A DNA stretch of 64,000 bases from assembly GCA_021464245.1 (NCBI GenBank), contig JADCRB010000043.1:4582794-4646793 (forward strand), in the 5' to 3' direction. The notes below the pieces were generated by a model. The model did not search any database and had not been told where the DNA came from. It was given only the letters and a program-made list of their open reading frames with translations. Positions 7,455 through 59,236 of the stretch are shown here, piece after piece. How positions within the stretch are numbered: position 1 is the stretch's first letter; each line of letters opens with the position of its first letter. The position numbers and the translations under genes are program-made. Source of the stretch: Carallia brachiata (Eukaryota; Streptophyta; Magnoliopsida; Malpighiales; Rhizophoraceae).

Positions 7455-7459
7455 AAAAG
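7455..7459. repeat. Target-site duplication of element A, left copy
   Basis: AAAAG directly precedes the left LTR. The same five bases follow the right LTR at 23,898-23,902. Five bases is the usual duplication for Ty3/gypsy integrases. Confidence 0.9.
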
Positions 7460-12526: not shown

Positions 12527-12531
12527 GATTC
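12527..12531. repeat. Target-site duplication of element B, left copy
   Basis: GATTC directly left of the 3' LTR remnant, identical to 22,286-22,290. It lies inside the gag frame of element A. Confidence 0.92.
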
Positions 12532-13024
12532 TGTAACAGGTAAATTTCGAGCCTAAAACAATTAGACTCGAAAATACAAAAATAAATTACAAATAAAAAT
12601 TTAAAATAAAAGAAAATTTACGTGGAGTCGATCTCTGTAGATCCTCCGATTAGTGTTCCTTTTTTGACTCCGTCAAGGGCTACACGAGCTTGATCTTGAC
12701 AGAAATAATTTCCACAGCTTTATTTTGAATTGGGTAGACTGAAACTGTATCTGATTTGGACGTTTTGACTACGGTTAAGAACCGTAGAGACCTGATCTGA
12801 GCCGATCTGGCTTAATTTCACCGAGGGTCGAAGGGACTTGTTCTCGGATGAGCTGCATGGATTTTGCTGAGGGCCGTATGAGACTTAATCCCAGCCGGAT
12901 TTGTAGTAATTTGATATTTTTAGATCTATATTCTTATAAATTCAGATTTAGAGCGATTCGAGAATATAAACTTAAAAATAATTTTAGAAATGGAAACAGC
13001 AAATTTTTTGGGGTTTACCCCTGA
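12532..13024 (-). repeat. Element B 3' LTR, truncated
   Basis: Starts TGTAAC and aligns with 21,533 onward, but stops after the TTTACCCCTGAA phrase at about 13,024. Compared with element C, about 560 bases are missing: the remaining LTR (U3 with TATA box and hairpin), the purine tract and part of the 3' region. The junction shows a few bases of shared sequence, consistent with end-joining. Confidence 0.88.
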
Positions 13025-13332
13025 AAGTTCTTTAAAGTTCCAAAGCTCTGGTGAGGATGATCCGGTAGGCAAAGAACTTGAACCTCCCCAAGAGGAAGGC
13101 CAGTACTTTGGAACTTCAAAACCGGCACACAGAGAGACTGACTGTAGTGATGATTCCCAAGTCTGCTTCGACGTAAGGAGAGTAGTTGGAACTCCATGAC
13201 ACTGATGGCGTAGGAGACTGAGTTTCGAGGGCTTTTGGGGATCCCTCGAGGAAGACTACTCCTTTTCTTAGCTTGTGCGCATCCAACTTCTTGATCAAAG
13301 AACTTCTTGGGACAAGTGCAGAGATTAGCCAT
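13015..13332 (-). CDS. Small ORF of unknown function, element B
   Basis: 105 codons from an ATG in strong plant context (AAGAAAATGGC). It begins MANLCTCPKKFFDQEVG, then a basic patch (AKKRSSLPRGIPKSP) and VMEFQLLSL. It has no signal peptide, membrane segment or family I recognise, and no CLE-type C-terminus. The first ~55 residues are conserved in element C (50,281), which supports real coding. The C-terminal part is scrambled: the deletion that removed the LTR end also fused this frame to LTR sequence, so the stop at 13,015 is not original. It may be a second captured host gene fragment or an element-specific accessory gene. Confidence 0.45.
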   Translation of the reverse strand: MANLCTCPKKFFDQEVGCAQAKKRSSLPRGIPKSPRNSVSYAISVMEFQLLSLRRSRLGNHHYSQSLCVPVLKFQSTGLPLGEVQVLCLPDHPHQSFGTLKNFQG

Positions 13333-13389
13333 TTTCTTTTGAGAAGAAGAAGAACTGAGGGGTGAGTATTATGACTCGGACATGCAGGA

Positions 13390-13397
13390 TATATATA
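13390..13397 (-). promoter_or_regulatory. TATA box of the small-ORF cassette, element B
   Basis: TATATATA on the minus strand, about 58 bases upstream of the ATG at 13,332. A CT-rich leader follows. Element C conserves the same box, leader and start. Confidence 0.55.
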
Positions 13398-13523
13398 CAT
13401 AACATAAAGAGTTTTTTTTTTTTGAAAAGTCAAAAGGAGGTACGCAGAATCTAGTAGAGTCCTCCACGTCCCTTTCTCCCATAAGAGACAAAAGAGGCAG
13501 CGGCTGATGCGAGTTACGAAAGT

Positions 13524-13567
13524 CGTTACCGTATGCTGCAGAGGTCGTTGCCGTGTGCTGCAGAAGT
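13524..13567. repeat. 22-base minisatellite, two units (element B)
   Basis: Two 22-base units (13,524-13,545 and 13,546-13,567) of the type CGTTGCCGTGTGCTGCAGAA plus GT. They lie between the WOX stop codon and the next TATA box. Element C has four units at the same place. Confidence 0.85.
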
Positions 13568-13584
13568 CGTTGCACCTTATCTTG

Positions 13585-14205
13585 TCAGCCATCCTGGCGG
13601 GGCCCAAGGCGCAGCTCCAAGTCAAGCTCGACCTCTTCTGGTGGGCCGATGATGTTGACGTCGCTTTCCGGCTGGTTGATGCTGCCGGAATATTTTGGAA
13701 AGAGAGGCAAAGTTTCGCCAGAATGACTCCTTTCTGTTAGAAAAAGTCCTCCTAGACTTAAGTACCTAGGAGGGATGAACCTTTGACTGACTCCATAAGA
13801 CCACCAGGACCAGTACGCATGCTCCCACAGGCTACTGCTTTGATCGTTGTAGCCTGAAGAGACCATTACAATGGTAGAACTCGGACCTGCTTCATTTGAG
13901 GGCGAAGTTGTACCGGGGGGATCTACCATCGGAACGACTGACTGTTCCTTAGAAAAAGCAGCTCTCAGTCCTGGTTTCTTTCTGCTTCTCCGATTCTGGA
14001 ACCAATAAAACACATTTTTTCCTTTGATTGACCTGAGCGGACGCAATCGTGAGACAAGTTGGTAAATCTGAGATGCATTAGGCATAATACCTCCATTGTT
14101 GTGGAAGACTTCCTCCAAAATTTACAGTTGTACTATGGTTGGTTGCCATCTTGTGCGGGGTGACTTTTCTTCTCCCTTGTCTTGAGGTTCTGCAACTGGT
14201 TCCAT
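13585..14205 (-). pseudogene. WUSCHEL-clade homeobox gene in element B
   Basis: One frame of 206 codons plus stop, from ATG at 14,205, broken only by a TAA at 14,122-14,124 (codon 28). Residues ~17-85 form a WOX-type homeodomain: TRWQPT at its start, ILEEVFHNNGG in helix 1, and the diagnostic GKNVFYWFQNRRSRKK in helix 3 (NVFYWFQNRR at 13,987-14,016). A canonical WUS box, TLPLFP, lies at 13,696-13,713. An EAR-like repression motif, LDLELRL, ends the protein (13,606-13,626). WUS-clade proteins are nuclear repressors that keep stem-cell niches. The domain order and length (~180-300 residues is usual) fit WUS/WOX5-type genes, although the homeodomain is diverged. No intron interrupts the frame, although WOX genes usually have one or two. 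It lies in sense orientation between integrase and 3' LTR. Confidence 0.9.
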
Positions 14206-14292
14206 CTTTCTTGTGGCAGAGGAGCAAAGTTCTGGTGTGTGGTGAAGATCGGTTGAGACTGATGCTAAGTTTCAGACTCAAACCTTCCGTCG

Positions 14293-14300
14293 CTTTTATA
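14293..14300 (-). promoter_or_regulatory. TATA box of the element B WOX gene
   Basis: TATAAAAG on the minus strand, 88 bases before the ATG at 14,205, with GGCCCA just upstream. The spacing suits a plant core promoter with a ~55-60 base 5' UTR. The same box lies at 51,291-51,298 in element C. Confidence 0.6.
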
Positions 14301-14389
14301 TTTTTGGGCCATTCACAGTTTATACTCATGCGGGTCAGGAGTTGGATTGGATTTTTAACTTGGGTTCTCGACTATGTCTGAAACTTAGA

Positions 14390-14639
14390 ATTTTTGGGTT
14401 TTGGGTTTTGGATTGGATTTGGGTCGAGTGTTTGGGCTTCTAGACTTGGATTTTTGGATTTGGGTCGAGTGTTTGGGTTTTGGACTTGGACTTTTGGATT
14501 TGGGTTGAGTGTTTGGGTTTTAAGTCTGGACTTAGTTTTCAGGCTTTTGAGTTAGGCTTGAGTTTTCTGATTTGGGCTCAAGTGTTTGGGCTTGGATTTT
14601 CGGGTTTGGATTTTCGCTTGTACTTTCAGATCGAGACTT
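14390..14639. repeat. ~43-base tandem repeat upstream of WOX gene
   Basis: The core GGATTTGGGTCGAGTGTTTG recurs at about 14,415, 14,457 and 14,501 (third copy with one change), with decayed units to about 14,620. Many TGGGCT/TGGGCC words, a site II-like promoter motif in plants, occur here. The same array lies at 51,345-51,640 in element C. It may act as an upstream promoter region for the homeobox gene. Confidence 0.75.
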
Positions 14640-14762
14640 CTGAACTTTTTTTTTTTTTGATTTTTTTGGTTTTTTTTCTTTTTTTTTGATTTTTTTGATT
14701 TTTTTTTTTTTTCTTTTTTTTTTTTGATTTTTTTCTTCTTTTTTTTTTTTTTTTAAACATAT
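14640..14762 (-). repeat. A-rich tract between integrase and WOX gene
   Basis: On the sense strand, about 110 bases of A with scattered G and TC (poly-T on the plus strand). It separates the retroviral genes from the captured gene. Element C has the matching tract at 51,645-51,730. Confidence 0.85.
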
Positions 14763-15880
14763 TTACACATAATACTGTTTCAGAAATTTACCATTGATTG
14801 GGCCGATTCGGACGCCTTCTTGGTCTGACAGCATGTAAGCGTTGTGAGTGTAGGCCTCCTGCACTAGGTATGGCCCGTCCCATTTGGAAGTAAGCTTGTC
14901 ACCAGGCCGATGCTTCATGTTGATGGGCCGTCGCACTGCAAGAACAAGGTCTCCAACTTGAAAAGATCGAGGGCGGACCCTGCGGTTGAACGTGTTGGTG
15001 AGCCGGGCTTGGTAGCACTCAAGTTGCTGTTGTGCTTTGAGTCTCCTTTCATCGAGAGCTTCTAACTCATCCAGACGTAGGCGAGCATTCTCCTCCTGTG
15101 TGAGTCCTTCAAGAACAGCCATGCGTAGGGATAGAATCTGTGTTTCCAACGGCAGTATTGCTTCGACACCGTAGACAAGTGAGTATGGCGTCGCCTGTGT
15201 TGGAGTCCGGTAAGTTGTACGATACGCCCATAATGCCTCCGGAATTCTGTCATGCCAATCTCTTTTGGATTTAGAGACTACCTTCCGCAATAGGTTGCAT
15301 AAGGTATTGTTGAATGCTTCGTCCAAGCCGTTAGCTGGGGCATTGTACTGGAATGACTTGTACTGCTTGAACTTGAATGACTTGTACTGCTTGAACTTGA
15401 ATTTATCGCAGAGCTTGTCAATCAAGCTGTTGTAGAACTGCTTACCATTATCAGTGATGATGAATCGAGGGACTCCATAGCGATAGATCAGCTGAGTCCG
15501 GATGAAATTGGCAACATGCTCCTTCTTTACCTCTCTAAGTGGAATGGCTTCAGCCCATTTTGAGAAGTAGTCGGTTGCTGCGAGGATGTACAGGTGACCC
15601 AGGGATGACTTTGGCAAGGGCCCCACTAAGTCGAGACCCCAAGCTTCAAAGGGCCAGGATGAGACAGTTGGATGCAGTGGCTCCGGTGGTTGATGTATGT
15701 AATTCGCATGAAATTGACAAGCTTGACAAGTTTTAGCAAACTCAATTGAATCACGTACCATGGTTGGCCAGTAGTATCCCATCCTTCTGAGTTGGAAGTG
15801 CAACTTAGGCCCGATTGATGTCCGCCACAAACAAGAATGTGCTTCAGTGAGAGCTGTTTTGCCTCTTCATTGCTAGGCAG
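14763..15880 (-). pseudogene. Element B integrase
   Basis: HHCC zinc end (C-x2-C in TCQACQFH, with its His part frameshifted upstream), then the catalytic core with Asp in LDLVGPLP, Asp in ITDNGKQF and Glu in GLDEAFNN. C-terminal RPRSFQVGDLVL and KWDGPYLV form the GPY-like tail. No chromodomain follows, and the stop is at 14,763-14,765. A perfect 24-base direct repeat at 15,351-15,398 duplicates eight residues (FKFKQYKS) just before the catalytic Glu region. Element C has one copy. Confidence 0.9.
15351..15398. repeat. Perfect 24-base tandem duplication in integrase
   Basis: 15,351-15,374 and 15,375-15,398 are identical. It is in frame, so it adds eight residues. It is absent from element C near 52,316-52,345. 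Confidence 0.93.
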
Positions 15881-16074
15881 CGAAGTAAAACTCCATCAAA
15901 AGACCTTCGATACAGAGCATCCTTGAGATATATGAAGCGGGGAGCTCGTCGTTGAATTTCTGTCTTATGACGACGATCTTCGGACAGCTTCCCGTACTAT
16001 AGGTAGTCAATGATTGGTTAGCGACAATCCTCGTCCTGCTTGAGATGTACAGATACAACGTTGACTGCTGTAGT
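15880..16074 (-). other. Element B linker between aRH and integrase
   Basis: The region equivalent to an open, unnamed linker in element C (RFNDELPASYISRMLCIE-type text). Here it is broken by small indels. No separate gene is present. Confidence 0.5.
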
Positions 16075-16951
16075 TTATTCATCATCCTTCTGCGGCACGA
16101 TCCATTTCTGGCATACAACAACAACTGTAGCCTGGATTTCTGACTTTGCAAGAGAAGTGGCTAAGTTAACCAACGCGTCTGCCTGAGTGTTTTCTCGTCG
16201 AGGCACATGCTCTAAAGTGATGCTTTCAAATTCATCCATTAGCTGTCGAGCACGTTGATGGTAAGGCGCAAGGTCCTCTTTCTTCACGTCATACAATCCT
16301 GTAAGTTGGTTGATGACGAGCTGGGAATCTCCATGGACTTCTATAGTTGGAATCTTCATATCGACAGCCATTTGAAGACCAATGATCAAAGCCTGGTATT
16401 CAGCAACATTATTTGAACATAACTCACCGAGAATGATAGCATATGGTAGTATTTGTCGTTGAGGAGTGACAAACACTATGCCGGCACCAGCACCATCACG
16501 CCTTGCTGCACCATCAAAGAACATCGTCCATGGTGGTAGTCTCAATGTAAAAGACCTCTTCATCTGGAAGATCATCTGTGAACTCCCAATCGACGGAATA
16601 GGGTGATCTGCAAGGAAGTCTGCTAGAGCTTGTCCTTTGACTGCTTTTTGAGGCACGTAGACAATGTCGTAGCTTTGTAGGATTACTGCCCACTTGGCAA
16701 GTCGTCCTGACAAGATTGGTCTATAAGATATATTTGACAGGATCAGCTCTGGCAATGAGACGTACCGTGTGAGCTTGCATGTAGTGCCTCAGCTTGTCAA
16801 TGGCAAAGAACAGTGCTAGACATGTCTTTTCAATGGGCGAATAACTCAGCTCCGGACCGTTTAGTGTTCTGCTCAAGTTACAGGGCAACTTCCTTTCCCT
16901 GCTCGTTTTCCTGTGCAAGCAAGGCTCCCAAAGATCTTTCCTGCGCTGCAA
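16075..16951 (-). pseudogene. Element B dual RNase H (RH plus aRH)
   Basis: The RT-linked RNase H (about 16,640-16,950) reads SYSPIEKTCLALFFAI and lacks the usual first catalytic Asp (ILYIAAQE), typical of a degenerate connector. A second, archaeal-type RNase H follows, with all four acidic positions: FFDGAAR near 16,513, NVAEYQAL, VHGDSQLV and TQADAL near 16,170. Two RNase H domains in tandem define the Tat branch. Small indels disturb the first part in this copy; element C keeps both in one frame (53,929-53,036). Confidence 0.9.
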
Positions 16952-17870
16952 TGTAGAGAATCAACGACTTTCCTTGAATTGGAGCTAGGACCGGTGGATT
17001 GGAAAGGTACTTCTTTATGCTCTCAAAGGCTTTGCTGCAAGCTTCGTCCCACTCGAAGTTGACATCCTTCTTCATCAACCGATGGAAAGGTTGACATCTC
17101 CCAGCTAAATTGGAGATGAAACGGCGAATGTAGGCCAGCTTTCCTTGTAGACTTCGCAGCTCGTGCAGGTTTTTAGGTTCAGGCATCTTTTGAATTGCCT
17201 CAACCTTTGACTGATCAACTTCGATTCCACGATGGCGCACCACGAACCCAAGAAACTTTCCTGATGTGACACCGAATGCGCACTTGAGAGGGTTCATTTT
17301 GAGCTGATGCCTCCGAAGTCTTTCGAACACTGTCTTGAGATCCTCGAGGTGGTCTTTGCGCTTCTTAGTCTTTACAACTAAGTCATCAACATAACATTCT
17401 ACAATCTTGTGCAGCATGTCATCAAAAATTTTTTGCATAGCACGTTGATAAGTGGCGCCAGCATTTTTTAATCCAAACGGCATAACTTTGTAGCAGTATA
17501 TACCTTTTGGGGTGCGGAATGCTGTCAACTCCTCGTCTTCTGGTGCCATTCTGATTTGGTTATAGCCTGAAGAACCATCCATGAAAGACAATGCTTCGTG
17601 ACCCGTTGTTGCATCGACTGTGATCTCCGTTATGGGCAACGGAAAGTCATCTTTCGGGCAGGCCTTGTTAAGATCTCGAAAATCAACACATACCCTCAAC
17701 TGTCCATTCTTCTTTCTTACCGGGACAATGTTGGCAATCCACGTTGGGTAGGTGACCTCTCGGATGAAGCCGCATTGATCAGCTTGTTCACCTCCTCCTC
17801 GATTTGTGGAATGAGTTCCGGGCGGAACCGTCGTTGTGGCTGCTTGACAGAACGACACCCTTCTTTACTG
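16950..17870 (-). pseudogene. Element B reverse transcriptase
   Basis: Blocks in order: IANIVPVRKKNGQLRVCVDF, DLNKACPKDDFPLP, MDGSSGYNQI, PFGLKNAGATYQR, the catalytic YVDD at 17,382-17,393 and the connection domain GRCQPFHRLMKKD. It copies the element's RNA into DNA. The domain is open over most of its length. The linker 17,870-18,500 between protease and RT is frameshifted and carries an acidic patch (SEEADSDSSDGEVKE). Confidence 0.92.
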
Positions 17871-18586
17871 CTAGACGATGCACCGCAATTTTTGGGTCAA
17901 GTCCAGGCATTTCTTTGTAACTCCATGCGAACACGTCCCTGTATTGACTTAATACCTGAACATATTCTTGCTCTTCTTCTGCAGTAAGTAAAGCACTTAC
18001 AAATGTAGGTCGAGGATCTTCCGGAGAGCCAAGATTGACCTCCTTGAGTTCATCAACAGTTGCTTGGCCACCATCTTCAAGTTCCGGGGGAGCCTCCTTC
18101 ACTTCACCATCTGATGAGTCGGAATCAGCCTCCTCGCTAATTGTGACATGAAATGCAGAACCTCTGACTTCACCTTCTTTGTTTGACTGGATAAGCCTGT
18201 CTTGTTTGGTGGTGGTGGTGATGGCACGTGCATCAGCTGCTCGGCTTCGGCTCTTTAGCGTGATCCGCACAGGTGACTTCTCCTGATAGCCTAAGCCAGG
18301 TCGGGACTGTGATGTTTGAGAAGCGCGCCATGTGTGGACGGCAGCGTACCCATTGTGCTCGGGTTTGAGAAGTCATAGCCCCTTTGCCAAAGCTTGTATG
18401 CATTAGGATCAAATCCTTCATGTGTTCTCTTTCTGGAAGTGAGCCGCCTTCGACTGCCCCCGTGTGTGGTTTGACGAAACCTTTTAATGGTTTTGAAGAC
18501 AAAACCGGCTCAATCTTTGGTATCGGCAGAGTGTAAGTCTCCTTCAGGTTGTGCAGTTCCTTTGCTTTCAGTTGGCTATGTCCTTG

Positions 18587-19336
18587 CTACTGTTTAGTAT
18601 CAATACAATAAGAGAAAGGGGGTTGACCTTCTGAGCGTCGTGACTTCGGCACATAGCGTAGGACTGGAGTGGAGCTTGAAGATGCAACATCCTTCAGACG
18701 AAGTTCAGCAGGCTGTGGCAGCTTTTCATTTGTTGGAGCCTGGGGTTGGGCATTGGCAGGTTCTTCGACAGCTTTTCCCTTTTTGTGGATGCCACCAGTC
18801 CAAGTAACTTTTGATGGAATGATCTCTGGATTGTCTGTGTCGGTGTAGAAGACTGCATCCGCCAAATGTGATTCAGCATCATCAAACGGCTTTAAATCAG
18901 CATTGACCTTTTGAACGCCACCATTGTAGTACTTGAAGCACTGATGTAGACTTGAGAGTACAACTCCATTTCCATGAATCCACGGTCGTCCTAACAACAT
19001 CTTATATGTGGTACGTGCATTGATCACATGAAATAAAGTGCTAGAAGTGAGATTACCGATAGTTAACTCCAAGCGAATCATCCCAATTGCTTTCTGTCCT
19101 CCTTGATTAAAGCCACGAATTATCAAGCGGCTGTCTGATAATTCATCAACACCGATGCCGAGCTCCTTTATGGTGGATTTTGGGATAATATTGACTGTCG
19201 AACCATCGTCGATCAGAATACGTCGGACCTTTTGTTCTCTCACATAGCCTGATACATACAGCGGCCGATTGTGGGGTTTTTGACCCCAGCAGGAGATCCT
19301 CATCTGAAAATGAGATAGCAAAGTAAAATCCGACAT
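18587..19336 (-). pseudogene. Element B protease region
   Basis: Open for 249 codons. The aspartic protease core is RRILIDDGSTVNIIP near 19,200, followed by SRLIIRGFNQGGQKAIG and the flap-end motif TYKMLLGRPWIHG, the standard layout of retroelement proteases that cleave gag-pol. A variable, Pro-rich linker follows. Gag, protease and RT lie in different frames in this copy because of indels. Confidence 0.85.
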
Positions 19337-19339
19337 GAT

Positions 19340-21256
19340 TTTGGTCCGCCTATTGCTCCGTCGAGTTGGAATTACTTGATGGCAGAGGTTCAGCTGAGGT
19401 ATGGAGAGTGCTGCTGACTTGATTTTGCCACACTTCTGTTGATTGCAAAGCTATAAACAGCTGAGGGTTAGCGAGCAGGGTTTGGAGAGCTTCATATACC
19501 TTCTCCGTTGTCGATTTTGTTGTCGAGAGCTCCTCCTTACGGTGTGTCACTCTTCTGATGGTTTTGAAGTGATGGTGGTTTGGTTTGCCGATGTTACGCC
19601 TTCCTGGTCCAGAATGATTTTATTCTGGCTTTTGAGCTTCATGATTAGCTCCTTCATGACGAAACACTTCTCGGTTGGATGACTTACTATCTTGGTGATA
19701 TTTGCAGAATCTCGAATCGCTGACTCGATCCTTTTCATTCGGCTGCTTGCACTTTGAGAGTTCGATTAGCTTCGCCTCCAAGAGTTGTTCAAGAATGTCG
19801 GGGACGTCTGAGTCAGGGAATGGATACTGCTTTTGCTCTAACTTTCGCAATGTTACCTTTCGCCTTTCCTGTTGTTTTGGCTGAGTTATTTGGGTCGGAG
19901 GATTTACCTTAGCTTTGGCGCCCACTTTTATTAGTGCGGCTTCAACAGTCATTGCTTCTTTTCCTTTTCCGAAACTGTTGGGTTTCTTAATCTCTCTTCT
20001 GCCCCCTTGCTGGTCCAACTGAATGGGAACCATGCCTCTGGAAGTCTGGATGCTTATCTCCATATCATGTGCGCGGGTCGCAAATTCTTCGAAAGTTCGG
20101 GGTTTAACACCCTGCAGGATGTATAACAGCTCCCAATGCATTCCCTGGATGCACATCTCCACGGCAGAAGTCTCCGTCAGACGATCTTTGCAGTCCAAGC
20201 TGAGAGCACGCCATCTGTTGATGTATTCGACAACGGGCTCTCCTTTTCTTTGTTTGGTGCTGGCAAGCTCCATTATACTTACCGTCCTTCGAGTGCTAAA
20301 AAATCTGTTGAGGAACTCTCGTTGTAGTTGTTCCCAACTGTTGATCGATTCTGGTTCAAGATTTATGAACCAGGTGAAAGCGGTCTCTCTGAGTGAACGA
20401 ACAAACTGCTTTACCAAGAGATCTCCATAAGTCCCTGCGTTGTTGCAGGTTTCAACGAAGTGGGCGATGTGCTGTTTGGGATCGCCTCGTCCGTCGAATT
20501 GTTGAAATTTGGGCGGTTGGTAGCCCAAGGGCATGTTGAGACTTTCGATCCGTCTGGTGTACGGTTTGACGTACATCTGTGATCCTTGGAAGGATGTAGC
20601 TTGTTGCAGTCGGATCGTATTGGCTATCATTTCCTGCAATTGTTGAACAGATAGCGAAGCTACAGAATTTGAGGGTGGCAGCTGTGTAGAACTACCTGGT
20701 CGCTTTTCTGCAGTGAAGACGTCGGCTGGTGTGGCTTCTGGAGTGAAACCAGGTGAATATGGTTGCTCCTTGCGGATTTCGAGATCAATTTGGATCGGGG
20801 CATTTCCTTTGAGAGCGGCGATCTGATGATCTTTTCCCTCCACGACTATGATTAACTGCAAAATTTTGTTCTCCAATTCTGAAATCCTTTCTTCTGTACT
20901 GGTTGTGTTGGTCATCATGATGGCAGCAGATGAGGCTCCGCGAAAGATTGGGGGAGAGAACTCTTCTGATTCTTCTGTGTGTGTTGGATTTTGTTGAGCA
21001 GGCTTCGTCGTGTTGCCCCCGACTTTGATCGGGTGGGTGATCGACTCCTCCATGCGGCAAGAGAGTCAGGGGAGAGTTCCTATTGTTGTGCAAGTTGTGG
21101 ACTCTCCGTTTCAATATTTTGTCGGATTTAGACGGCAAGAAATTGTGTCCGTCCCCGGGTTTCTGGACCTGCGTACCCAGGTAGGGTAGTTGATGAAGGC
21201 AATGGAGCCGTTGCCTTCTTGTTGGTACCAGCAGCTGGACTTCTTTTTAGTGTCAT
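19340..21256 (-). pseudogene. Element B gag
   Basis: An ATG at 21,254-21,256 is in frame with the start of this gag, whereas element C has TTG there. Two early stops fall near 21,130 and 21,080, after which the frame is open from 21,053 to 19,620. Features in order: a coiled-coil segment (ERISELENKILQL) near 20,880, a gag domain from about 20,530 (MPLGYQPPKFQQFDGRGDPK, then RSLRETAFTWF and REFLNRFF) to about 20,200, and a C-terminal CKYH...SHPTEKC metal-binding-like motif split by a frameshift near 19,690. It would build the virus-like particle. Confidence 0.88.
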
Positions 21257-21509
21257 TTAATGTGTTGAACACCTGTAAAAATTTTTTTTTACTTTTTTTT
21301 TTACTTTTTACTTTTTTTTTCTTTTTTACCTTTTTCGTCTTTTTCTCTATTTTCTCTTTTTCTCTTTTTCTTTTTTCTTTTTTTTCTTTTTCCTTTTCTT
21401 CTTTTCTCGGCTCTTTTCTTTTTTCCTTTTTTCTTTTCTCTGCTGCTTCCTTTTGGTTTTTTTTTGTTTTGTTTTTTTTTTAAGGAACAAGAGATGGGAG
21501 ATGAAGAGG
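21257..21509 (-). other. Element B leader with A/G-rich tract
   Basis: Between primer site and gag start, the sense strand is a ~200-base purine tract (AAAAAGAAAAG-type words; pyrimidine on the plus strand at about 21,277-21,480). Element C has the same tract at 58,198-58,372. No gene is present. Confidence 0.7.
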
Positions 21510-21526
21510 TCCCACCGAGCGTGCCA
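21510..21526 (-). other. Element B primer binding site
   Basis: On the minus strand, a few bases inside the 5' LTR, TGGCACGCTCGGTGGGA begins with the TGG expected for a tRNA 3'-end complement. The identical site is found in element C. I cannot name the tRNA from the sequence alone. Confidence 0.7.
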
Positions 21527-22192
21527 AAAATTTGTAACTGGTAAATTTTGAGACTAAAACAATTAGACTCGAAAATACAAAAATAAATTACAAATAAAAG
21601 TTTAAAATAAAAAAAATTTTACGTGGGGTCGATCTCCATAGATCTTCCGATTAATGTTCCTTTTTTGACTCCGTCAAGGGCTACACGAGCTTGATCTTGA
21701 CATAAATAATTTCTACAGCTTTATCTTGAACTTGGTAGACTGAAACTGTATCTGATTTGGACGTTTTGACTACGGTTAAGAACCGCAGAGACCTGATCTG
21801 AGCCGATCTGGCTTTACTTCACCGAGGGTCGAAGGGACTTGTTCTCAGATGAGATGTCTGAATTTTACTGAGGGACGTATGAGACTTAATCCCAGCCGGA
21901 TTTGTAGTAATTTGATATTTTTAGATCTATATTCTTATAAATTCAGATCTAGAGCGATTCGAGAATATAAACCTAAAAATAATTTTAGAAATGGAAACAG
22001 CAAATTTTTTGGGGTTTACCCCTGAAATATCTCTCAAAAAGGAGTTAGGAGAGTATACTGTAGAGTAAAAGCACATAGAAAAAGGATAAATTTTCTTGAG
22101 AGATTTTCAAAATTTTCTTTTTCTCTCAAATTCTCTGGATTTTTCTGTTTACAGATTTGCTGAATGATAGATAGAACTGGGGTGGGAGGGCC

Positions 22193-22200
22193 TATTTATA
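22193..22200 (-). promoter_or_regulatory. TATA box of element B 5' LTR
   Basis: TATAAATA on the minus strand, centred in the palindrome GAGGGCCTATTTATAGGCCC. The same block occurs in both LTRs of element C, so it is likely the genomic-RNA promoter of this family. Confidence 0.65.
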
Positions 22201-22222
22201 GGCCCTCCAAAGAACTGTGCTA

Positions 22223-22244
22223 CCAACCTTGATTTCAAGGTTGG
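22223..22244. other. LTR hairpin, 10-bp stem
   Basis: CCAACCTTGA, a TT loop, then TCAAGGTTGG: a perfect 10-base stem near the U3 end of the LTR. Element C has a hairpin at the same place with a different sequence. Confidence 0.75.
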
Positions 22245-22285
22245 CGGCTGCCAACCATTATTGATTTTTTTTTTTTTCGTTTACA

Positions 22286-22290
22286 GATTC
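22286..22290. repeat. Target-site duplication of element B, right copy
   Basis: GATTC directly right of the 5' LTR terminus GTTTACA, identical to 12,527-12,531. Confidence 0.92.
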
Positions 22291-23511: not shown

Positions 23512-23524
23512 GGCTCTGATACCA
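23512..23524 (-). other. Element A primer binding site (iMet type)
   Basis: On the minus strand, just inside the 5' LTR, the sequence reads TGGTATCAGAGCC. This is the classic plant primer site complementary to the 3' end of initiator methionine tRNA. Confidence 0.88.
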
Positions 23525-23527
23525 AAC

Positions 23528-48814: not shown

Positions 48815-49618
48815 TGTAACGGGTAAATTTCGAGTCTGAAACAGTTAGACTCAAAAATGTAAAAAATAAATTACAAATAAAAATTTAAAAATAAAAGAAA
48901 ATTTACGTGGGGTCGATCTCCGTAAATCCTCTGATTAGTGTTCCTTTTTTTTTTTGACTCCGTCAAGGGCTGCACGAGTTTGATCTTGACATAAATAATT
49001 TCTACAGTTTTATCTTGAATTGGGTAGACTGAAACTGGATCTGAGGTAGATGTCTGAGTTACGTTTAAAAACCGCAGAGATCTGATCTGAACCAATCTGG
49101 TTTAATTTCACCGAGGGTCGAAGGGACTTGTTCTCGGATGAGCTGTCTGAACTTTGCTGATGGCCGTATGAGGCTTGATCCCAGCCGAATTTGTAATATT
49201 TTGATATTTTTTAGATCTATATTCTCATAATTTCAGATTTAAAGCGATTAGAGAATATAAATCTAAAAATAAATTTAGAAATGAAAACAGCAAATTTTTT
49301 GGGGTTTACCCCTGAAATATCTCTCAAAAAGGAGTTAGGACAGTATACTACAGAGTAAAAACACGTAAGAAAAAGAGAAATTTTCTTGAGAGATTTTCAA
49401 AATTTTCTTTTTCTGTCAAATACTCTGGATTTTTCTGTTTACAGATTTGCTGAATATGTTTTGAACTGGGGGGCGAGGGCCTATTTATAGGGCTCATTTC
49501 CCATACGAACATCACATGGGAAAGGAAGAAAATTTAAAACCGTGTCAGCGTTGCCAATTTTGAAATTGGCAACGCTGACATGACTGGACTTTTTTTTTTT
49601 TTGAAAAGAATGTTTACA
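48815..49618 (-). repeat. Element C 3' LTR
   Basis: 804 bases, TGTAAC to GTTTACA. It contains the TATA palindrome (CCTATTTATAGGG near 49,480-49,492) and, at 49,543-49,580, a perfect 18-base-pair hairpin with a two-base loop. Confidence 0.92.
49543..49580. other. LTR hairpin, 18-bp perfect stem
   Basis: Arms 49,543-49,560 and 49,563-49,580 (AAATTGGCAACGCTGACA) are perfectly complementary. It lies in U3, about 40 bases from the LTR edge, the same relative place as the unrelated-sequence hairpin of element B. Confidence 0.85.
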
Positions 49619-49640
49619 AATGCCCCTACTTCAAGGGTCG
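49619..49640 (-). other. Element C polypurine tract
   Basis: The sense strand reads AAGTAGGGGCATT immediately before the 3' LTR start TGTAAAC. This is the expected site of plus-strand priming. It is deleted in element B. Confidence 0.65.
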
Positions 49641-49667
49641 GTAAGGAAGAATTTTAGGGATGTGATC

Positions 49668-49951
49668 TTAACCGAGTCTTGAAGTCGAGTTTGAAATTTG
49701 AGACGTCCTGATGAATATTGAATGTTGAAGTCTTCTAACCCTGACTATACCTGCTATTGTTGGATCGCAATAGGAACCCGGTACGATCTTGAGAAAGTTA
49801 GCACCCCAGCCAATATAAAAATTAACATTCTGCCTCCAGGTGCGGTCGAGCTTCCATAGCTCATAAAAGCTGGCAAAGGTTCTTTGAAGTTCCAAAACTC
49901 TGGTGAGAATGATCTGGTAGGCAAAAAACTTGAACCTCCTCAAAAGGAAGG
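49668..49951 (-). other. Element C 3' region, open but unrecognised
   Basis: A ~95-codon open stretch (to 49,958) includes NFYIGWGANFLKIVPGSYCD. It matches no family I know. It overlaps the end of the small ORF and is mostly missing from element B, so coding cannot be tested by comparison. It is probably the element's 3' untranslated region. Confidence 0.35.
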
Positions 49952-50281
49952 TTAGCACTTTGGAACTTCAAGATCGGCACACAGAGAAACTGACTGTAGT
50001 GATGATTCCCAAGTCTGTTTCGACGTCAGGAGAGTAGTTGGAACTTCCCTGCACGTTGCCGCATCCAAAGGAAGATTAGGATGATTGCAGCTTCTCATCC
50101 CTCTGTGGTAGATGTGAATTAAGGAGAGTAGTTGGAACTCCATGACACCGATGCCGTTGAAGACTGAGTTTTGAGGGTTTTTAGGAATCCCTCGAGAAGG
50201 ACTACTTCTTCTTTTCTTAGCTCGTGCGCCTCCAACTTCTTGATCAAAGAACTTTCTGAGACAAGTGCAGAGGCTAGCCAT
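49952..50281 (-). CDS. Small ORF of unknown function, element C
   Basis: 109 codons from an ATG (50,279-50,281) in the same strong context as in element B (AAGAAAATGGC), with a TATA-like run at about 50,340-50,350 on the sense strand. It begins MASLCTCLRKFFDQEVGG, with a basic patch AKKRRSSPSRGIPKNPQNS, then VMEFQLLSL. An ~85-base segment after that, absent from element B, is flanked by two copies of GTTCCAACTACTCTCC, so B probably lost it by recombination between them. This is the longer and likely more original form. The function is unknown, and there is no signal peptide or membrane helix. Confidence 0.45.
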   Translation of the reverse strand: MASLCTCLRKFFDQEVGGARAKKRRSSPSRGIPKNPQNSVFNGIGVMEFQLLSLIHIYHRGMRSCNHPNLPLDAATCREVPTTLLTSKQTWESSLQSVSLCADLEVPKC

Positions 50282-50476
50282 TTTCTTCTTGAGAGAAAGA
50301 AGAGATGAGGGGTGAGTATGACAACTCGGGAATGCAAGATATATATATACATATGATAAAGAGTTTTTTTTTTTTGAAATGTCAAAAAGAAGGTACGCAG
50401 AATCTAGTAGGGTCATCCACGTCTCTTTCCTGCATAAAAGACAAAAGAGGCAGAGGCTGACGCGCGTCACGAAAGT

Positions 50477-50564
50477 CGTTACCGTGTGTTGCAGAAGTCG
50501 TTGCCGTATGCTGCAGAAGTCGTTGTCATATGCTGCAGAAGTCGTTGTCATATGCTGCAGAAGT
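50477..50564. repeat. 22-base minisatellite, four units (element C)
   Basis: Units at 50,477-50,498, 50,499-50,520, 50,521-50,542 and 50,543-50,564. The last two are identical. It lies between the WOX coding end and the small-ORF promoter. Element B has two units. Confidence 0.92.
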
Positions 50565-51206
50565 CGTTACAACTTATCTTGTCAGCCGCCCTGGCTGGCC
50601 CGAGGCGCAGCTCCAAGTCAAGCTCGGCCTCGTCTGGTGGGCCGATGATGTTGACGTCGCTGGAGCCTTCCGATTTGTTGATGCTGCTGGAATATTCTGG
50701 GAAGAGAGGTAAAGTTTCGCCGGAATGACTTCCTTCTGCTATAAAAATACCTCCTGAACTTAAGTACTTAGAAGGAATGAACCCTTGACTGACTCTATAA
50801 GACCACCAGGACCAGTACACATGCTCCCACAGGCTACAGCGTTGATCGTTATAGCCTGAAGAGACCATTGCAGTGGTAGAACTCGGACCTGCTTCATTTG
50901 AGGGCGAAGCTGTACTGGTGGGATCCATAATCGAAACGGCAGACTATGCTTTGGAAAAAGCAGTTTTCAGTGCTGGTTTCTTCCTGCTTCTCCGATTCTG
51001 AAGCCAATAAAACACATTTTTTCCTTCGATCGCCCCGAGCGGGCGCGGTCGTAAAACAAGTTGGTAAATCTAAGATGTATTAGGAATAATACCTCCATTA
51101 TTGTGGAAGACTTCCTCCAAAATTTGCAGTTGTGCCATGGTTGGTTGCCACCTTGTGCGGGGTGACCTTTCTTCTTCCTTGTCTCGAGGTCTGCAACTGG
51201 TTCCAT
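50548..51206 (-). pseudogene. WUSCHEL-clade homeobox gene in element C
   Basis: Second copy of the captured gene. The ATG at 51,206 (MEPVAD) is thrown out of frame by a one-base deletion within the first ~7 codons. The downstream frame holds TRWQPT, QLQILEEVFHNNGGIIPN, a TAG at 51,070-51,072, then GKNVFYWLQNRRSRKK (the invariant helix-3 Phe is now Leu), a second TAG at 50,944-50,946, the WUS box TLPLFP at 50,698-50,715 and the EAR-like LDLELRL at 50,602-50,622. The C-terminus runs on past the position of the stop in element B because of a small indel. The lesions differ from those in element B. Confidence 0.9.
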
Positions 51207-51290
51207 CTTTCTTGTGGCAGAGGAGCAAAGGTCTGGTATGTGAAGATCGATTGAGACTGATGCTGGGTTTCAGACTCAAACCCTCCGTCG

Positions 51291-51298
51291 CTTTTATA
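51291..51298 (-). promoter_or_regulatory. TATA box of the element C WOX gene
   Basis: TATAAAAG on the minus strand, 85 bases before the ATG, conserved with element B along with the GGCCCA word upstream. Confidence 0.6.
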
Positions 51299-51344
51299 TT
51301 TTTGGGCCGTTCACAGTTTATACTCATGCGGGCCAAGAGTTGGA

Positions 51345-51675
51345 TTGGATTTTGAACTTGGGTTCTAGACTTGTGTCTGGAACTTGGAATTTTTTGATTT
51401 AGGTTTTTGGATTGGATTTGGGTCGAATGTTTGGGCTTCCAAACTTGGATTTTTGGATTTGGGTCGAGTGTTTGGGTTTTGGACTTAGACTTTTGGATTT
51501 GGGTCAAGTGTTTGGGTTTTGGATCTGGACTTAGTTTTCAGGCTTTTGAGTTGGGTTTAAGTTTTCTGATTTGGGCTCAAGTGTTTGGGCTTGGATTTTC
51601 GGGTTGGATTTTCGCTTATATTTTCAGATCAGGACTTCCGAACTTTTCTTTTTTATGATTTTTTTTATTTTTTTG

Positions 51676-51722
<47 letters not shown>

Positions 51723-51735
51723 ATTTTTTTTGTAA
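51345..51735. repeat. Tandem repeat and A-rich tract upstream of WOX, element C
   Basis: 51,345-51,640 repeats GGATTTGGGTCGAGTGTTTG-type units as in element B. 51,645-51,730 is a poly-T on plus (one run exceeds 50 T), A-rich in the sense direction. No gene is present. The run length may be unreliable. Confidence 0.8.
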
Positions 51736-51740
51736 CATAT

Positions 51741-52821
51741 TTACACATAATACTGTTTCAGAAATTTACCATTGATCGGGCCAATTCGGACGCCTTCTTG
51801 GTCTGACAGCATGTAAGCGTTGTGAGTGTAGGCCTCCTGCACTAAGTATGGCCCGTCCCATTTGGAAGTAAGCTTGTCACCAGGCCGATTTCATGTTGAT
51901 GGGCCGTCGCACTGCAAGAACAAGGTCTCCAACTTGAAAAGATCGAGGCGGACCCTGCGGTTGAACGTGTTGGTGAGCCGGGCTTGGTAGCACTCAAGTT
52001 GCTGTTGTGCTTCGAGCCTCCTTTCATCGGGCTTCTAACTCATCCAGACGTAGGCGAGCATTCTCCTCCTGTGTGAGTCCTTCCAGAACAGCCATGCGCA
52101 GGATGGAATCTGTGTTTCCAACGGCAGTATTGCTTCGACACCGTAGACAAGTGAGTATGGCGTCGCCTGTGTTGGAGTCCGGTAAGTTGTACGATACGCC
52201 CATAATGCCTCTGTCATGCCAATCTCTTTTGGATTTAGAGACTACCTTCCGCAACAGGTTGCATAAGGTCTTGTTGAATGCTTCGGCCAAGCCATTTGCT
52301 GGGGCATTGTACATGGATGACTTGTACTGCTTGAACTTGAACTTCTCGCAGAGCTTGTCGATCAAGCTGTTGTAGAACTGCTTACCATTATCAGTGATGA
52401 TGAATCGAGGGACTCCATAGCGATAGATCAGCTGAGTCCGGATGAAATTGGCAACATGCTCCTTCTTTACCTCTCTAAGTGGAATGGCTTCAGCCCATTT
52501 TGAGAAGTAGTCGGTTGCTGCGAGGATGTACAGGTGACCCAGGGATGACTTTGGCAAGGGCCCCACTAAGTCGAGACCCCAAGCTTCAAAGGGCCAGGAT
52601 GAGACAGTTGGATGCAGTGGCTCCGGTGGTTGATGTATGTAATTCGCATGAAATTGACAAGCTTGAAGTTTTAGCAAACTCAATTGAATCACGTACCATG
52701 GTTGGCCAGTAGTATCCCATCCTTCTGAGCTGGAAGTGCAACTTAGGCCCGATTGATGTCCGCCACAAACACCAGAATGTGCTTCAGTGAGAGCCTGTTT
52801 TGCCTCTTCATTGCTAGGCAC
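51741..52821 (-). pseudogene. Element C integrase
   Basis: Same integrase as element B: HSGVCGGHQSG keeps the two His of the zinc end, then the core Asp in LDLVGPLP, ITDNGKQF and GLAEAFNK. The stop is at 51,741-51,743. Several one- or two-base gaps (near 52,670, 52,210, 52,085 and 51,890) break the frame. It has one copy of the 24-base unit that is doubled in element B. Confidence 0.88.
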
Positions 52822-53035
52822 GAAGTAAACTCCATCAAAAGACCTTCGATACAGAGCATCCTTGAGATATATGAAGCGGGGAGCTCGTCGTTGAATTTCT
52901 GTCTTATGACGACGATCTTCGGGCAGCTTCCCGTGCTGTAGGTAGTCAATGATTGGTTGGCGCCAATCTCGTCCTCCGCGAGACGTACAGATACAGCGTT
53001 GGCTGCTGTAGTTTCTTCATCATCCTTCTGTGGCA

Positions 53036-53929
53036 CTATCCATTTCTGGCATACGGCAACAACTGTAGCCTGGATTTCTGACTTTGCAAGAGAGTGGCCA
53101 GGTTAGCCAACGCGTCTGCCTGAGTGTTTTCTCGTCGAGGCACATGCTCCAAGGTGATGCTTTCAAATTCATCCATTAGCTGTCGAGCACGTTGATGGTA
53201 AGGCGCAAGGTCCTCTTTCTTCACATCATACAATCCTGTAAGTTGGTTGATGACGAGCTGGGAATCTCCATGGACTTCTATAGTTGGAATCTTCATATCG
53301 ACAGCCATTTGAAGACCAATGATCAAAGCCTGGTATTCAGCAACATTATTTGAACATAACTCACCGAGAATGATAGCATATGGTAGTATTTGTCGTTGAG
53401 GAGTGACAAACACTATGCCGGCACCAGCACCATCACGCCTTGCTGCACCATCAAAGAACATCGTCCATGGTGGCAGTGTCTCAATGTAAAAGACCTCTTC
53501 ATCTGGAAGATCATCTGTGAACTCCCAATCTGACGGAACAGGGTGATCTGCAAGGAAGTCTGCTAGAGCTTGTCCTTTGACTGCTTTTTGAGGCACGTAG
53601 ACAATGTCGTAGCTTTGTAGGATTACTGCCCACTTGGCAAGTCGTCCTGACAAGATTGGTCTAGATAAGATATATTTGACAGGATCAGCTCTGGCAATGA
53701 GACGTACCGTGTGAGCTTGCATGTAGTGCCTCAGCTTGTCAATGGCAAAGAACAGTGCTAGACATGTCTTTTCAATGGGCGAATAACTCAGCTCCGGACC
53801 GTTTAGTGTTCTGCTCAAGTAGTACAGGGCAACTTCCTTTCCCTGCTCTTTTCCTGTGCAAGCAAGGCTCCCAAAGATCTTTCCTGCGCTGCAATGTAGA
53901 GAATCAACGACTTTCCTTGAATTGAGCAC
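53036..53929 (-). pseudogene. Element C dual RNase H
   Basis: Both RNase H domains are open in one frame here: ALYYLSRTLNGPELSYSPIE of the degenerate first domain, the linker QALADFLADHP, then the archaeal-type domain with FFDGAARRDGAGAG, NVAEYQALI, VHGDSQLVINQL and NTQADALANLAT. This is the better-preserved version of the Tat hallmark. 52,822-53,035 is the linker to integrase. Confidence 0.92.
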
Positions 53930-54835
53930 CTAGGACCGGTGGATTGGAAAGGTACTTCTTTATGCTCTCAAAGGCTTTGCTGCAAGCTTCGTCCCACTCG
54001 AAGTTGACATCCTTCTTCATCAACCGATGGAAAGGTTGACATCTCCCAGCTAAATTGGAGATGAAACGGCGAATGTAGGCCAGCTTTCCTTGTAGACTTC
54101 GCAGCTCGTGCAGGTTTTTAGGTTCAGGCATCTTTTGAATTGCCTCAACCTTTGACTGATCAACTTCGATTCCACGATGGCGCACCACGAACCCAAGAAA
54201 CTTTCCTGATGTGACACCGAATGCGCACTTGAGAGGGTTCATTTTGAGCTGATGCCTCCGAAGTCTTTCGAACACTGTCTTGAGATCCTCGAGGTGGTCT
54301 TTGCGCTTCTTAGTCTTTACAACTAAGTCATCAACATAACATTCTACAATCTTGTGCAGCATGTCATCAAAATTTTTTGCATAGCACGTTGATAAGTGGC
54401 GCCAGCATTTTTAATCCAAACGGCATAACTTTGTAGCAGTATATACCTTTTGGGGTGCGGAATGCTGTCAACTCCTCGTCTTCTGGTGCCATTCTGATTT
54501 GGTTATAGCCTGAAGAACCATCCATGAAAGACAATGCTTCGTGACCCGTTGTTGCATCGACTGTGATCTCCGTTATGGGCAACGGAAAGTCATCTTTCGG
54601 GCAGGCCTGTTAAGATCTCGAAAATCAACACATACCCTCAACTGTCCATTCTTCTTTCTTACCGGGACAATGTTGGCAATCCACGTTGGGTAGGTGACCT
54701 CTCGGATGAAGCCAGCATTGATCAGCTTGTTCACCTCCTCCTCGATTTGTGGAATGAGTTCCGGGCGGAACCGTCGTTGTGCTTGCAGAAGAACACCCTT
54801 CTTTACTGCTAGACGATGCACCGCAATTTTGGGTC
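53904..54835 (-). pseudogene. Element C reverse transcriptase
   Basis: Same RT as element B, with catalytic YVDD at 54,327-54,338, cut into three frames by single-base gaps near 54,365, 54,575-54,610 and 54,790. Outside these gaps it is nearly base-identical to 16,950-17,870. Confidence 0.9.
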
Positions 54836-55849
54836 AAGTCCAGGCATTTCTTTGTAACTCCATGCGAACACGTCCCTGTATTGACTTAATACCTGAACAT
54901 ATTCTTGCTCTTCTTCTGCAGTAAGTAAAGCACTTACAAATGTAGGTCGGGATCTTCCGGAGAGCCAAGATTGACCTCCTTGAGTTCATCAACAGTTGCT
55001 TGGCCCATCTTCAAGTTCCGGGGGAGCCTCCTTACTTCACCGTCTGATGAGTCGGACTCAGCCTCCTCGCTAATTGTGACATGAAATGTAGACCTCTGAC
55101 TTCCTTCTTTGTTTGACTGGAAAGCCTGTCTTGTTTGGTGGTGGTGGTGATGGCACGTGCATCAGCTGCTCGGCTTCGGCTTTTAGCGTGATCCGCACAG
55201 GTGACTTCTCCTGAAGCCTAAGCCAGGTCGGGACGTGAGTTTGAGAAGGCGCCATTGTGATGGCAGTACCCATTGTGCTCGGGTTTGAGAAGTCAAGCCC
55301 GCCTTGCCAAAAGCTTGTATGCATTAGGATCAAATCCTTCATGTGTTCTTCTTTCTGGAAGTGAGCCGCCTTCGACTGCCCCTGTGTGGTTGACGAAGCC
55401 TTTTAATGGTTTTGAGACAAAACCGGCTCAATCTTTGGTATCGGCAGAGTGTAAGTCTCCTTCAGGTTGTGCAGCTTTTGTTTTGGGTTGGCTATGTCCT
55501 TGCTGCTGTTTAGGATCAATACAATAAAGAAAGGGGGTTGACCTTCTGGCGTCGTGACTTCGGCACATAGCGTAGGACTGGAGTGGAGCTTGAAGATGCA
55601 ACATCCTTCGGACGAAGTTCAGCAGGCTGTGGCAGCTTTTCATTTGTGGAGCTGGGGTTGGGCATTGGCAGGTTCTTCGACAGCTTTTCCCTTTTTGTGG
55701 ATGCCCCCAGTCCAAGTAGCTTTTGATGGAATGATCTCCGGATTGTTGTGTCGGTGTAGAAGACTGCATCGCCAAATGTGATTCAGCATCGAACGGCTTT
55801 AAGTCAGCATTGACCTTTTGAACGCACCATTGTAGTACTTGAAGCACTG

Positions 55850-56250
55850 ATGCAGGCTTGAGAGCACAACTCCATTTCCATGAATCCATGGTCGTCCTAG
55901 CAACATCTTATATTGGTACGTGCATCGATCATAAAATAAGTGCTAGAAGTGAGATTACGATAGTTAGCTCCAAGCGAATCATCCCAATTGCTTTCTGTCC
56001 TCCTTAATTAAAGCCATGAATCATCAAGCGGCTGTCTGATAATTCATCAATGCCAATGCCGAGCTCCTTTATGGTGGATTTTGGGATAATATTGACAGCC
56101 AAGCCATCGTCGATCAGAATACGTCGGACCTTCTGTTCTCTCACATAGCCTGATACATACAGCGGCCGATTGTGGGGTTTGGACCCCAGCAGGAGATCCT
56201 CATCTGAAAATGAGATAGCAGAGTAACATCCGACGTGATTTTGGGCTGCC
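55850..56250 (-). pseudogene. Element C protease region
   Basis: Protease core ILIDDG near 56,100-56,125, where the residue after DDG is no longer Ser, and RPWIHG-like text near 55,890. More diverged from element B than the RT and integrase are. The linker 54,836-55,849 is full of small deletions relative to element B. Confidence 0.75.
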
Positions 56251-56299
56251 TGATGCTCCGTCGAGTTGGAATTATTTGATGGCAGAGATCCAGCTGAGG

Positions 56300-58175: not shown

Positions 58176-58422
58176 TTGTTGTGCTGAACACTTGTAAAAT
58201 TTTTTTTTTTACTTTTTTTTACTTGTGTTACCTTTTTCTTCTTTTTCTCTATTTTGTCTTTTTTTCTTTTTTTTCTTTTTTCTTTTTTCTTTTTTCCTTC
58301 TCGGTTCTTCTTTTTTCCTTTTTTTCTTCTTTTTTCTTTTCTCTGCTGCTTCTTTTTGTTTTTTTTTTTTTTAAGAACAAGAGATGAGAGGTAAAGAGGT
58401 CCCACCGAGCGTGCCAAAAATT
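58176..58422 (-). other. Element C leader with purine tract and primer site
   Basis: A/G-rich on the sense strand (58,198-58,372), then the primer site (TGGCACGCTCGGTGGGA) at about 58,400-58,416, then the 5' LTR. No gene. Confidence 0.7.
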
Positions 58423-59236
58423 TGTAACAGGTAAATTTCGAATCTGAAACAGTTAGACTCAAAATAAAAAAAATAAATTACAAATAAAAATTCAAAAATA
58501 AAAAAAAATTTACGTGAGGTCGATCTCCGTAAATCCTCCGATTAGTATTTCTTTTTTTTTTTTACTCCGTCAAGTGCAGCACGAGCTTGATCTTGACAGA
58601 AATAATTTCCATAACTTTATCTTGAACTGAGTAGACTGAAACTGGATCTGAGGTAGATGTCTGAGTTACATTTAAAAACTGCAGAGATCTGATCTGAGCC
58701 AATCTGGCTTAATTTCACCGAGGGTCGAAGGAACTTGTTCTCGGATGGGCTGCCTGAACTTTGCTGATGGCCGTATGAGACTTGATCCCAGCCGGATTTG
58801 CAACATTTTGATATTTTTAGATCTATATTCTTATAATTTCAGATTTAAAGCGATCAGAAAATATAAATCCAAAAAATAAACTTAGAAATGGAAACAACAA
58901 ATTTTTTAGGGCTTACCCCTGAAATATCTCTTAAAAAGGAGTTAGGAGAGTATACTACAGAGTAAAAACACGTAAGAAAATGATAAATTTTCTTGAGAGA
59001 TTTTCGAGATTTTCAAAATTTTCTTTTTCTCTCAAATTTTCTGGATTTTTCTGTTTACAGATTTGCTGAATATGTTTTGAACTAGGGGGTGAGGGCCTAT
59101 TTATAAGGCTTCTTTCACATGTGAACATCACATGAGAAAGGAAGAAAATTTAAAACCGCGTCGGCGTTGCCAATTTTGAAATTGGCAACGTCGACATGAC
59201 TTGACTTTTTTTTTTGTTTTTAAAATGATGTTTGCA
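58423..59236 (-). repeat. Element C 5' LTR
   Basis: 814 bases, TGTAAC to TGTTTGCA (one change from the other terminus). The hairpin at 59,161-59,194 keeps a perfect 12-base inner stem. The primer site lies just left, at 58,400-58,416, identical to that of element B. Confidence 0.92.

Follow-up and report, generated by a model that had tools for sequence, protein, structure and literature searches.

The window, that is, the whole stretch of 64,000 nucleotides that was analysed, contains on its minus strand a Tat-type LTR retrotransposon, here called E1, which carries a homeobox frame of the WUSCHEL (WUS) type, hereafter the cargo. The parts of E1 are the following (positions in the window, with Pfam matches in brackets).

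12532..22285, minus strand: whole element E1, a Tat-type LTR retrotransposon, from LTR alignment and target-site duplication
22286..22290, minus strand: 5' target-site duplication GAATC, a perfect match to the 3' one
21533..22285, minus strand: 5' LTR, about 753 nt, starting with TGTAAAC and ending with TTACA
21508..21526, minus strand: primer binding site, TGGCACGCTCGGTGGGACC
19620..21053, minus strand: gag (PF03732, 1.1e-14)
18587..19336, minus strand: aspartic protease (PF13975, 1.2e-4, below the Pfam cut-off)
16878..17858, minus strand: reverse transcriptase (PF00078, 6.4e-35)
16075..16755, minus strand: additional (Tat-type) RNase H, upstream of the integrase (PF13456, RVT_3, 9.9e-25)
14763..15830, minus strand: integrase (PF00665, 7.1e-10)
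13585..14205, minus strand: WUS-type homeobox frame (cargo), broken by a TAA at 14124-14122
13963..14160, minus strand: 66-residue homeodomain of the cargo
13696..13713, minus strand: WUS box TLPLFP of the cargo
13606..13626, minus strand: EAR-like motif LDLELRL of the cargo
12532..13026, minus strand: 3' LTR, the 5' part of which is absent from this copy
12527..12531, minus strand: 3' target-site duplication GAATC, a perfect match to the 5' one

The cargo had been described in a first-pass annotation, the coordinates and strand of which were reproduced, as was the order of homeodomain, TLPLFP and LDLELRL (MEPV...RTRWQPT...GKNVFYWFQN...TLPLFP...ELDLELRL). Its placement in sense to gag-pol, between the integrase and the 3' LTR, was borne out by the Pfam matches and the LTR alignment, with a gap of 558 nt separating the integrase frame from the start of the cargo, which precedes the 3' LTR. 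The uninterrupted frame of about 206 codons that had been reported stands only in so far as there is no intron. The in-frame TAA, overlooked earlier, interrupts helix 1 of the homeodomain, so that the frame is not open, and the terminator after ...LGPR that is common to most copies read is absent, which adds three residues. Other copies of the cargo are open across 203 to about 209 codons.

E1 has the LTR pair, primer binding site, polypurine tract (PPT) and 5-bp target-site duplication (TSD) of an LTR retrotransposon, a perfect TSD being present in E1 and in three of the ten copies fetched. In the family the LTRs have TGTAAAC at the start and TTACA at the end, and the PPT directly adjoins TGTAAAC. 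The Pfam domains of E1 come in the order gag, protease (below cut-off), reverse transcriptase, RVT_3 and integrase, and this order of gag, protease, reverse transcriptase, RNase H and integrase is the gypsy order, as in the Tat lineage of Ty3/gypsy elements.

E1 is itself inserted in an outer Ty3/gypsy element with LTRs at 7456-7832 and 23524-23897 (about 377 nt, 90% identical), a gag at 11806-12303, a reverse transcriptase at 9958-11730 and an RH/integrase zinc-finger region at 8956-9846. The interval 14413-14754, between the E1 integrase and the cargo, contains an array with a 40-nt repeat unit together with a stretch that is T-rich on the plus strand. Elsewhere in the window, a big nested palindrome at 3056-6782 comprises 13 pairs of inverted repeats (66-232 nt long and 80-93% complementary), several of which have their centre at about 5265, and may represent a fold-back element or else an inverted duplication; a 76-nt unit is exactly duplicated in tandem at 2315-2466.

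The window holds a second element of the same family.

48815..59236, minus strand: second family element, E2, with LTRs at 59236-58424 and 49618-48815
50548..51190, minus strand: cargo of E2 (approximate ends), with two stops within the matched stretch and a shifted start

The TSD copies of E2 agree at four of five bases (CTCTT/CTTTT), and one of its frames contains RT_RNaseH followed by RVT_3, that is, the usual and the additional RNase H. Such a succession, which in angiosperm Tat elements lies ahead of the integrase, is described as a hallmark of Tat elements in the passages available from PMC6317226.

The cargo is not confined to the locus at which it had first been noticed: besides E2, a 33-base helix-3 pattern, allowing up to three mismatches, matched 827 sites (394 + 433) in the 337.5-Mb genome, which are sites and not intact genes, and the reversed-pattern control matched 0. 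When the genome was searched with the Pfam homeodomain profile, 150 of 1347 candidates being scored, there were at least 150 matches, and about half of those listed have a cargo-like score of 49.5-49.6 bits. With the cargo as query there were at least 151 matches (150 of 2136 candidates scored), and 32 copies among the matches listed have the same score and identity (316.9 bits, 85%). We read 48 distinct copies, a sample of best matches and hand-picked copies and not a random one, from which the repeat loci L009, L049 and L051 had been dropped. In nineteen of them the frame stays open for 198 or more of 203 codons, and the other 29 are broken or incomplete; the aligned ATG is kept in 16 of the open copies and absent in three.

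Wide flanks were obtained for ten copies. An LTR lies downstream in all ten and in the upstream piece in eight; a sense integrase is found upstream in nine, its match ending 365-757 nt from the cargo, and the PPT likewise in nine. The TSD could be judged in six of the ten (L045, L047, L049 and L053 being excluded): it is perfect over 5 bp in L041 (GATAC), L055 (ATGGC) and L057 (ATCTG), agrees at four of five bases in L051, and was not found as a matching pair at L039 and L043. Carriage of the cargo through transposition, as originally proposed, is upheld by these copies lying between LTRs, some with perfect target-site duplications. The copy L049 (G000 C141:539773-545797) is chimeric, with the LTR that follows the cargo succeeded by a lead-in to a primer binding site, like head-to-tail elements sharing an LTR. 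Overall, the gene has sense orientation, follows the integrase and precedes the 3' LTR, occurs genome-wide with the element and is intronless, and we regard it as almost certain that it is a WUS-clade homeobox accessory gene of a Tat-lineage Ty3/gypsy element.

LTR divergence in the copies measured ranged from K2P 0.0026, for the partial LTR pair of L041/L042, to 0.140. At a substitution rate of 1.3e-8 per site and year, the lowest value corresponds to about 0.1 million years; the values of 0.088, for L043, and 0.140, for the more distant LTR of L045, are probably from LTRs of different insertions. A recent burst of amplification is plain, because of the 32 listed copies of equal score and the small LTR distance of L041/L042. 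Synonymous distances between L041 and L045 are 0.082 in the integrase and 0.007 in the cargo, and those between L041 and L055 are 0.083 and 0.242, as would be seen if elements recombined, leaving pol and cargo each with a history of its own.

The homeodomain of the open copy L010 matched the solved WUSCHEL homeodomain with an E-value of 3.6e-18 and the Pfam Homeodomain profile with 5e-12, and among solved structures WUSCHEL ranked first and STENOFOLIA second. A 175-residue piece of the E1 cargo gave a homeodomain match of 3.3e-6, and Pfam EAR reached only E 0.084 on L010, below the cut-off. In protein searches, which reach only proteins of similar length having short words in common with the query, WUSCHEL proteins were the best matches, with 31-53% identity over 32-77% of the query (best 120 of 435). 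This was also so in a search with nine cargo variants, among the matches of which (120 of 660 listed) were also some WOX3 proteins, with identity of up to 59% across 29% of the query. The assignment to WUS-clade WOX proteins made at first sight agrees with these searches, in which the best matches were WUSCHEL and not non-WOX proteins. The WUS box TLPLFP and the EAR-like tail are present, both varying between copies (TLPLLS in L057). The span from RW to WFQN measures 53 residues in the two host WUS and six cargo rows, and 52 in ten other host WOX.

A tree with the WOX proteins of the host, which had been suggested as a check, answered part of the question. Rooted on WOX9/13, it placed the cargo with WUS and WOX1-5 (split support 91/84, with a long-branch warning for cargo versus WOX9/13), on a homeodomain branch of about 1.3 changes per site. 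It did not single out one donor lineage: in an AU test of the sister of the cargo, over 66 columns and with this long branch, WUS was not rejected (p 0.23), nor was any of WOX1/2/3/4/5 (p 0.23-0.51 across all six groupings). Judged from its sequence, the cargo belongs to the WUS (modern) clade of WOX, and it likely, though unproven, descends from WUS itself, because the homeodomain length is common to both.

Upstream of the cargo frame lies a further conserved feature.

14287..14327, minus strand: conserved block with a TATA box (TATAAAA at 14300-14294), 95 nt before the cargo ATG

Of 37 upstream regions, 35 have TATAAAA at a distance of about 95 nt from the ATG, an additional earlier box coming first in five. 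Among 12 copies, the p-distance is 0.020 in the 60-nt TATA block, 0.082 from the block to the ATG and 0.178 further upstream; for synonymous sites in the cargo it is 0.125. Genome-wide, 777 sites matched a 41-base pattern taken from the block, and 0 matched its control. The LTR carries a TATA box of its own. A scan for bacterial promoters and terminators, which is not designed for plants, found nothing. The block is probably an internal promoter of the cargo.

The host WOX set, with labels assigned from motifs, comprises two WUS (at G000 C90:2365828 and C65:260970), two WOX1, two WOX4, WOX2, WOX3, WOX5, two WOX13 and one WOX9. The two WUSCHEL loci and the paired WOX1, WOX4 and WOX13 genes fit an old genome duplication. 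Vigna was considered as the host and rejected: among the proteins searched, the HD-Zip gene L003 of the genome is closest to those of Erythroxylum novogranatense (405 bits) and Rhizophora mucronata (401 bits), legumes ranking lower, and a second HD-Zip gene, L008, shows 90% and 71% identity in its two main pieces to the Rhizophora protein, compared with 86% and 57% to that of Erythroxylum. Both point to a host within Malpighiales, near Rhizophoraceae. An intact donor of close sequence was not found in the host genome, both WUS twins being distant from the cargo; the size of this distance implies that the capture is old, that evolution was fast, or both. The comparison of intron positions proposed at the outset came out as expected of a donor, the coding sequence of host WUS being split into three separated pieces at L069 and at least two at L070, and the cargo having no intron. 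We infer that the cargo was captured from a host gene, and capture from spliced RNA is compatible with the data, if unproven. Genomic DNA might instead have been captured together with its promoter and have lost its introns afterwards, and the TATA block upstream of the cargo is something that an mRNA would not supply. This origin is unlikely, however, as two intron losses are extra steps and there is no convincing similarity to the upstream regions of host WUS, the matches listed being of just 14 and 16 bases, to L069, with the longer one in antisense.

Selection on the cargo was estimated from open copies, which were selected ahead of the dN/dS count, so that stops had been removed and missense changes had not. 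Over the 171 pairs of the 19 open copies, some of which are alike, dN/dS was 0.44 for all codons, 0.18 for the homeodomain and 0.53 for the tail. A tree-independent set was formed from seven pairs of open copies without a common branch in a tree of 16 copies. In this set the homeodomain showed 33 synonymous versus 28 nonsynonymous differences (dN/dS 0.26, P 1.8e-7), and the values were 0.61 (P 0.004) for the tail, 0.83 (P 0.40) for the first 15 residues and 0.52 (P 1.2e-6) for the whole cargo. The WUS box and EAR stretch alone showed no significant constraint in these seven pairs (dN/dS 0.63, P 0.22). In six copies, dN/dS was 0.45-1.06 for the integrase, a value possibly inflated by misaligned frames, and 0.30-0.63 for the whole cargo, the latter being lower in 15 of 15 pairs; single homeodomain pairs among them reached 0.59 (L051-L055). 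The homeodomain is the best-kept part of the cargo and was under purifying selection during diversification of the family, and the cargo is very likely selected as a gene of the element.

The explanation that we favour with fair assurance, reading the sequences as a whole, is that of a Tat-lineage Ty3/gypsy element with an accessory gene descended from a WUSCHEL-clade homeobox gene, which has a homeodomain kept by selection and would have its own promoter and encode a WUS-like repressor acting on host cells. The cargo would be transcribed from its own TATA promoter and not solely from the LTR, its protein would enter the nucleus, and its homeodomain would bind WUS-type sites. WUS recruits TOPLESS, and the WUS box and EAR-like tail of the cargo might repress host genes by the same recruitment. 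The likeliest gain for the element would be obtained in trans on the host cell, by promoting or holding a meristem-like, divisible state, or alternatively by damping the defences of meristem-like cells; through either, new insertions could enter the germ line. This stem-cell mechanism is the weakest step and is put forward tentatively, as a doubtful one.

The cargo has a DNA-binding domain, and its protein might instead act as an autoregulator, binding its own LTR or internal promoter and thereby tuning transcription of the element, a role that has been proposed for the DNA-binding antisense ORFs of Retand elements. WUS binds the motifs TGAATGA, TTAATGG, TTAATSS and TAAT. These motifs were counted in the LTRs only: in eight LTRs TGAATGA was seen once (1.9 expected), TTAATGG was not seen (1.3 expected), TTAATSS was seen eight times versus 5.4 expected, a count as high as this arising in 31 of 200 simulations, and TAAT 63 times versus 92. 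Direct control of the LTR through WUS motifs is unsupported by these counts, in which no motif was enriched, but helix 3 of the cargo differs from that of WUS and its motif may differ as well. Predicted DNA-binding accessory ORFs after pol are frequent in Retand elements according to the sections available from PMC11963269, a parallel that speaks for autoregulation; we nevertheless hold it to be improbable. A cargo without function, captured once and seemingly conserved through few recently amplified master elements, would agree with the recent burst, with the broken or incomplete state of 29 of the 48 copies read and with repression motifs lacking significant constraint, but it is more improbable still, given that subfamilies differ in the homeodomain with a skew towards synonymous sites (P 1.8e-7), that the noncoding TATA block is six times less variable than synonymous sites, and that the integrase of the same copies is less constrained.

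Genes in plant LTR elements are mostly viewed as debris. The family described here retains, as a working part, the DNA-binding portion of a developmental master regulator, in hundreds of copies and apparently equipped with a promoter, and a selfish element may steer host cells. A selected WUS-type accessory gene acting on host cells would parallel retroviral oncogenes in plants, and manipulation of stem cells by a transposon in order to reach the germ line becomes testable. Genome annotation may mistake copies of the cargo for an expansion of the host WOX family.

The first-pass annotation knew of no described retrotransposon family with a WOX cargo, which is contradicted by the LTR-WOX genes of Vigna: many amplified WOX genes are reported in V. 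marina and V. riukiuensis, more than 1000 in the latter, most of them with identical LTRs and TSDs on either side (PMC10714607). The source is a single paragraph on a talk of K. Naito in a 2023 meeting report (PMC10714607), and a fuller account may exist. The Vigna genes resemble the family described here in their many WOX copies, mostly between identical LTRs with TSDs, and differ in belonging to another plant order; the comparison is by description only, the paragraph being silent on the lineage of the element, its promoter, the WOX subtype and tests of selection. It would be a long shot to propose one promoter-equipped Tat lineage with a WUS-type regulator, of which the elements of coastal Vigna and the Malpighiales family described here would be kin by horizontal transfer, its cargo acting as a stem-cell effector and giving the element access to the germ line. 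WOX proteins are among the expanded families of V. reflexo-pilosa, in a passage that makes no tie to transposons (PMC10357499), and this expansion may be related to the LTR-WOX amplification. In the parts available of PMC6482515 and PMC5501002, transposable elements were counted near WOX genes of Brassica and cotton, and not WOX genes inside elements. Apart from PMC10714607, no report of WOX inside LTR elements was found in the open-access literature searched, and words starting with 'homeo' or 'WUS' are absent from the main text of four surveys of extra ORFs or domains (PMC11963269, PMC7264820, PMC6317226, PMC9289625). That LTR elements can contain WOX genes is already known; the occurrence of one in an order other than that of Vigna, in the Tat lineage, with selection on the homeodomain and a conserved promoter block, was not found in print in that literature.

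Among characterised elements, Retand and Ogre of the Tat clade are alike in the additional RNase H between RH and integrase, as far as the portions available of PMC11963269, PMC6317226 and PMC7264820 go, and Retand is also alike in its long stretch with extra ORFs between pol and the 3' LTR (PMC11963269). In the available part of the Retand survey, by contrast, the sense ORFs of this stretch are without known domain, and the extra ORFs annotated are antisense and mostly TRP28 (PMC11963269). The Phalaenopsis element Gypsy_Pa_2799, which carries an active AlkB-type RNA demethylase, is similarly a large Gypsy element with a fixed additional active domain, according to the excerpts available of a paper that also lists B3 among added domains (PMC9289625); there the addition is an RNA-modifying enzyme, whereas here it is a developmental transcription factor. 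WUSCHEL proper, as represented by the host copies, shares with the cargo the 66-residue homeodomain, the WUS box and the EAR-like tail, and differs from it in that the host genes have introns and the cargo, with its homeodomain on a long branch, has none.
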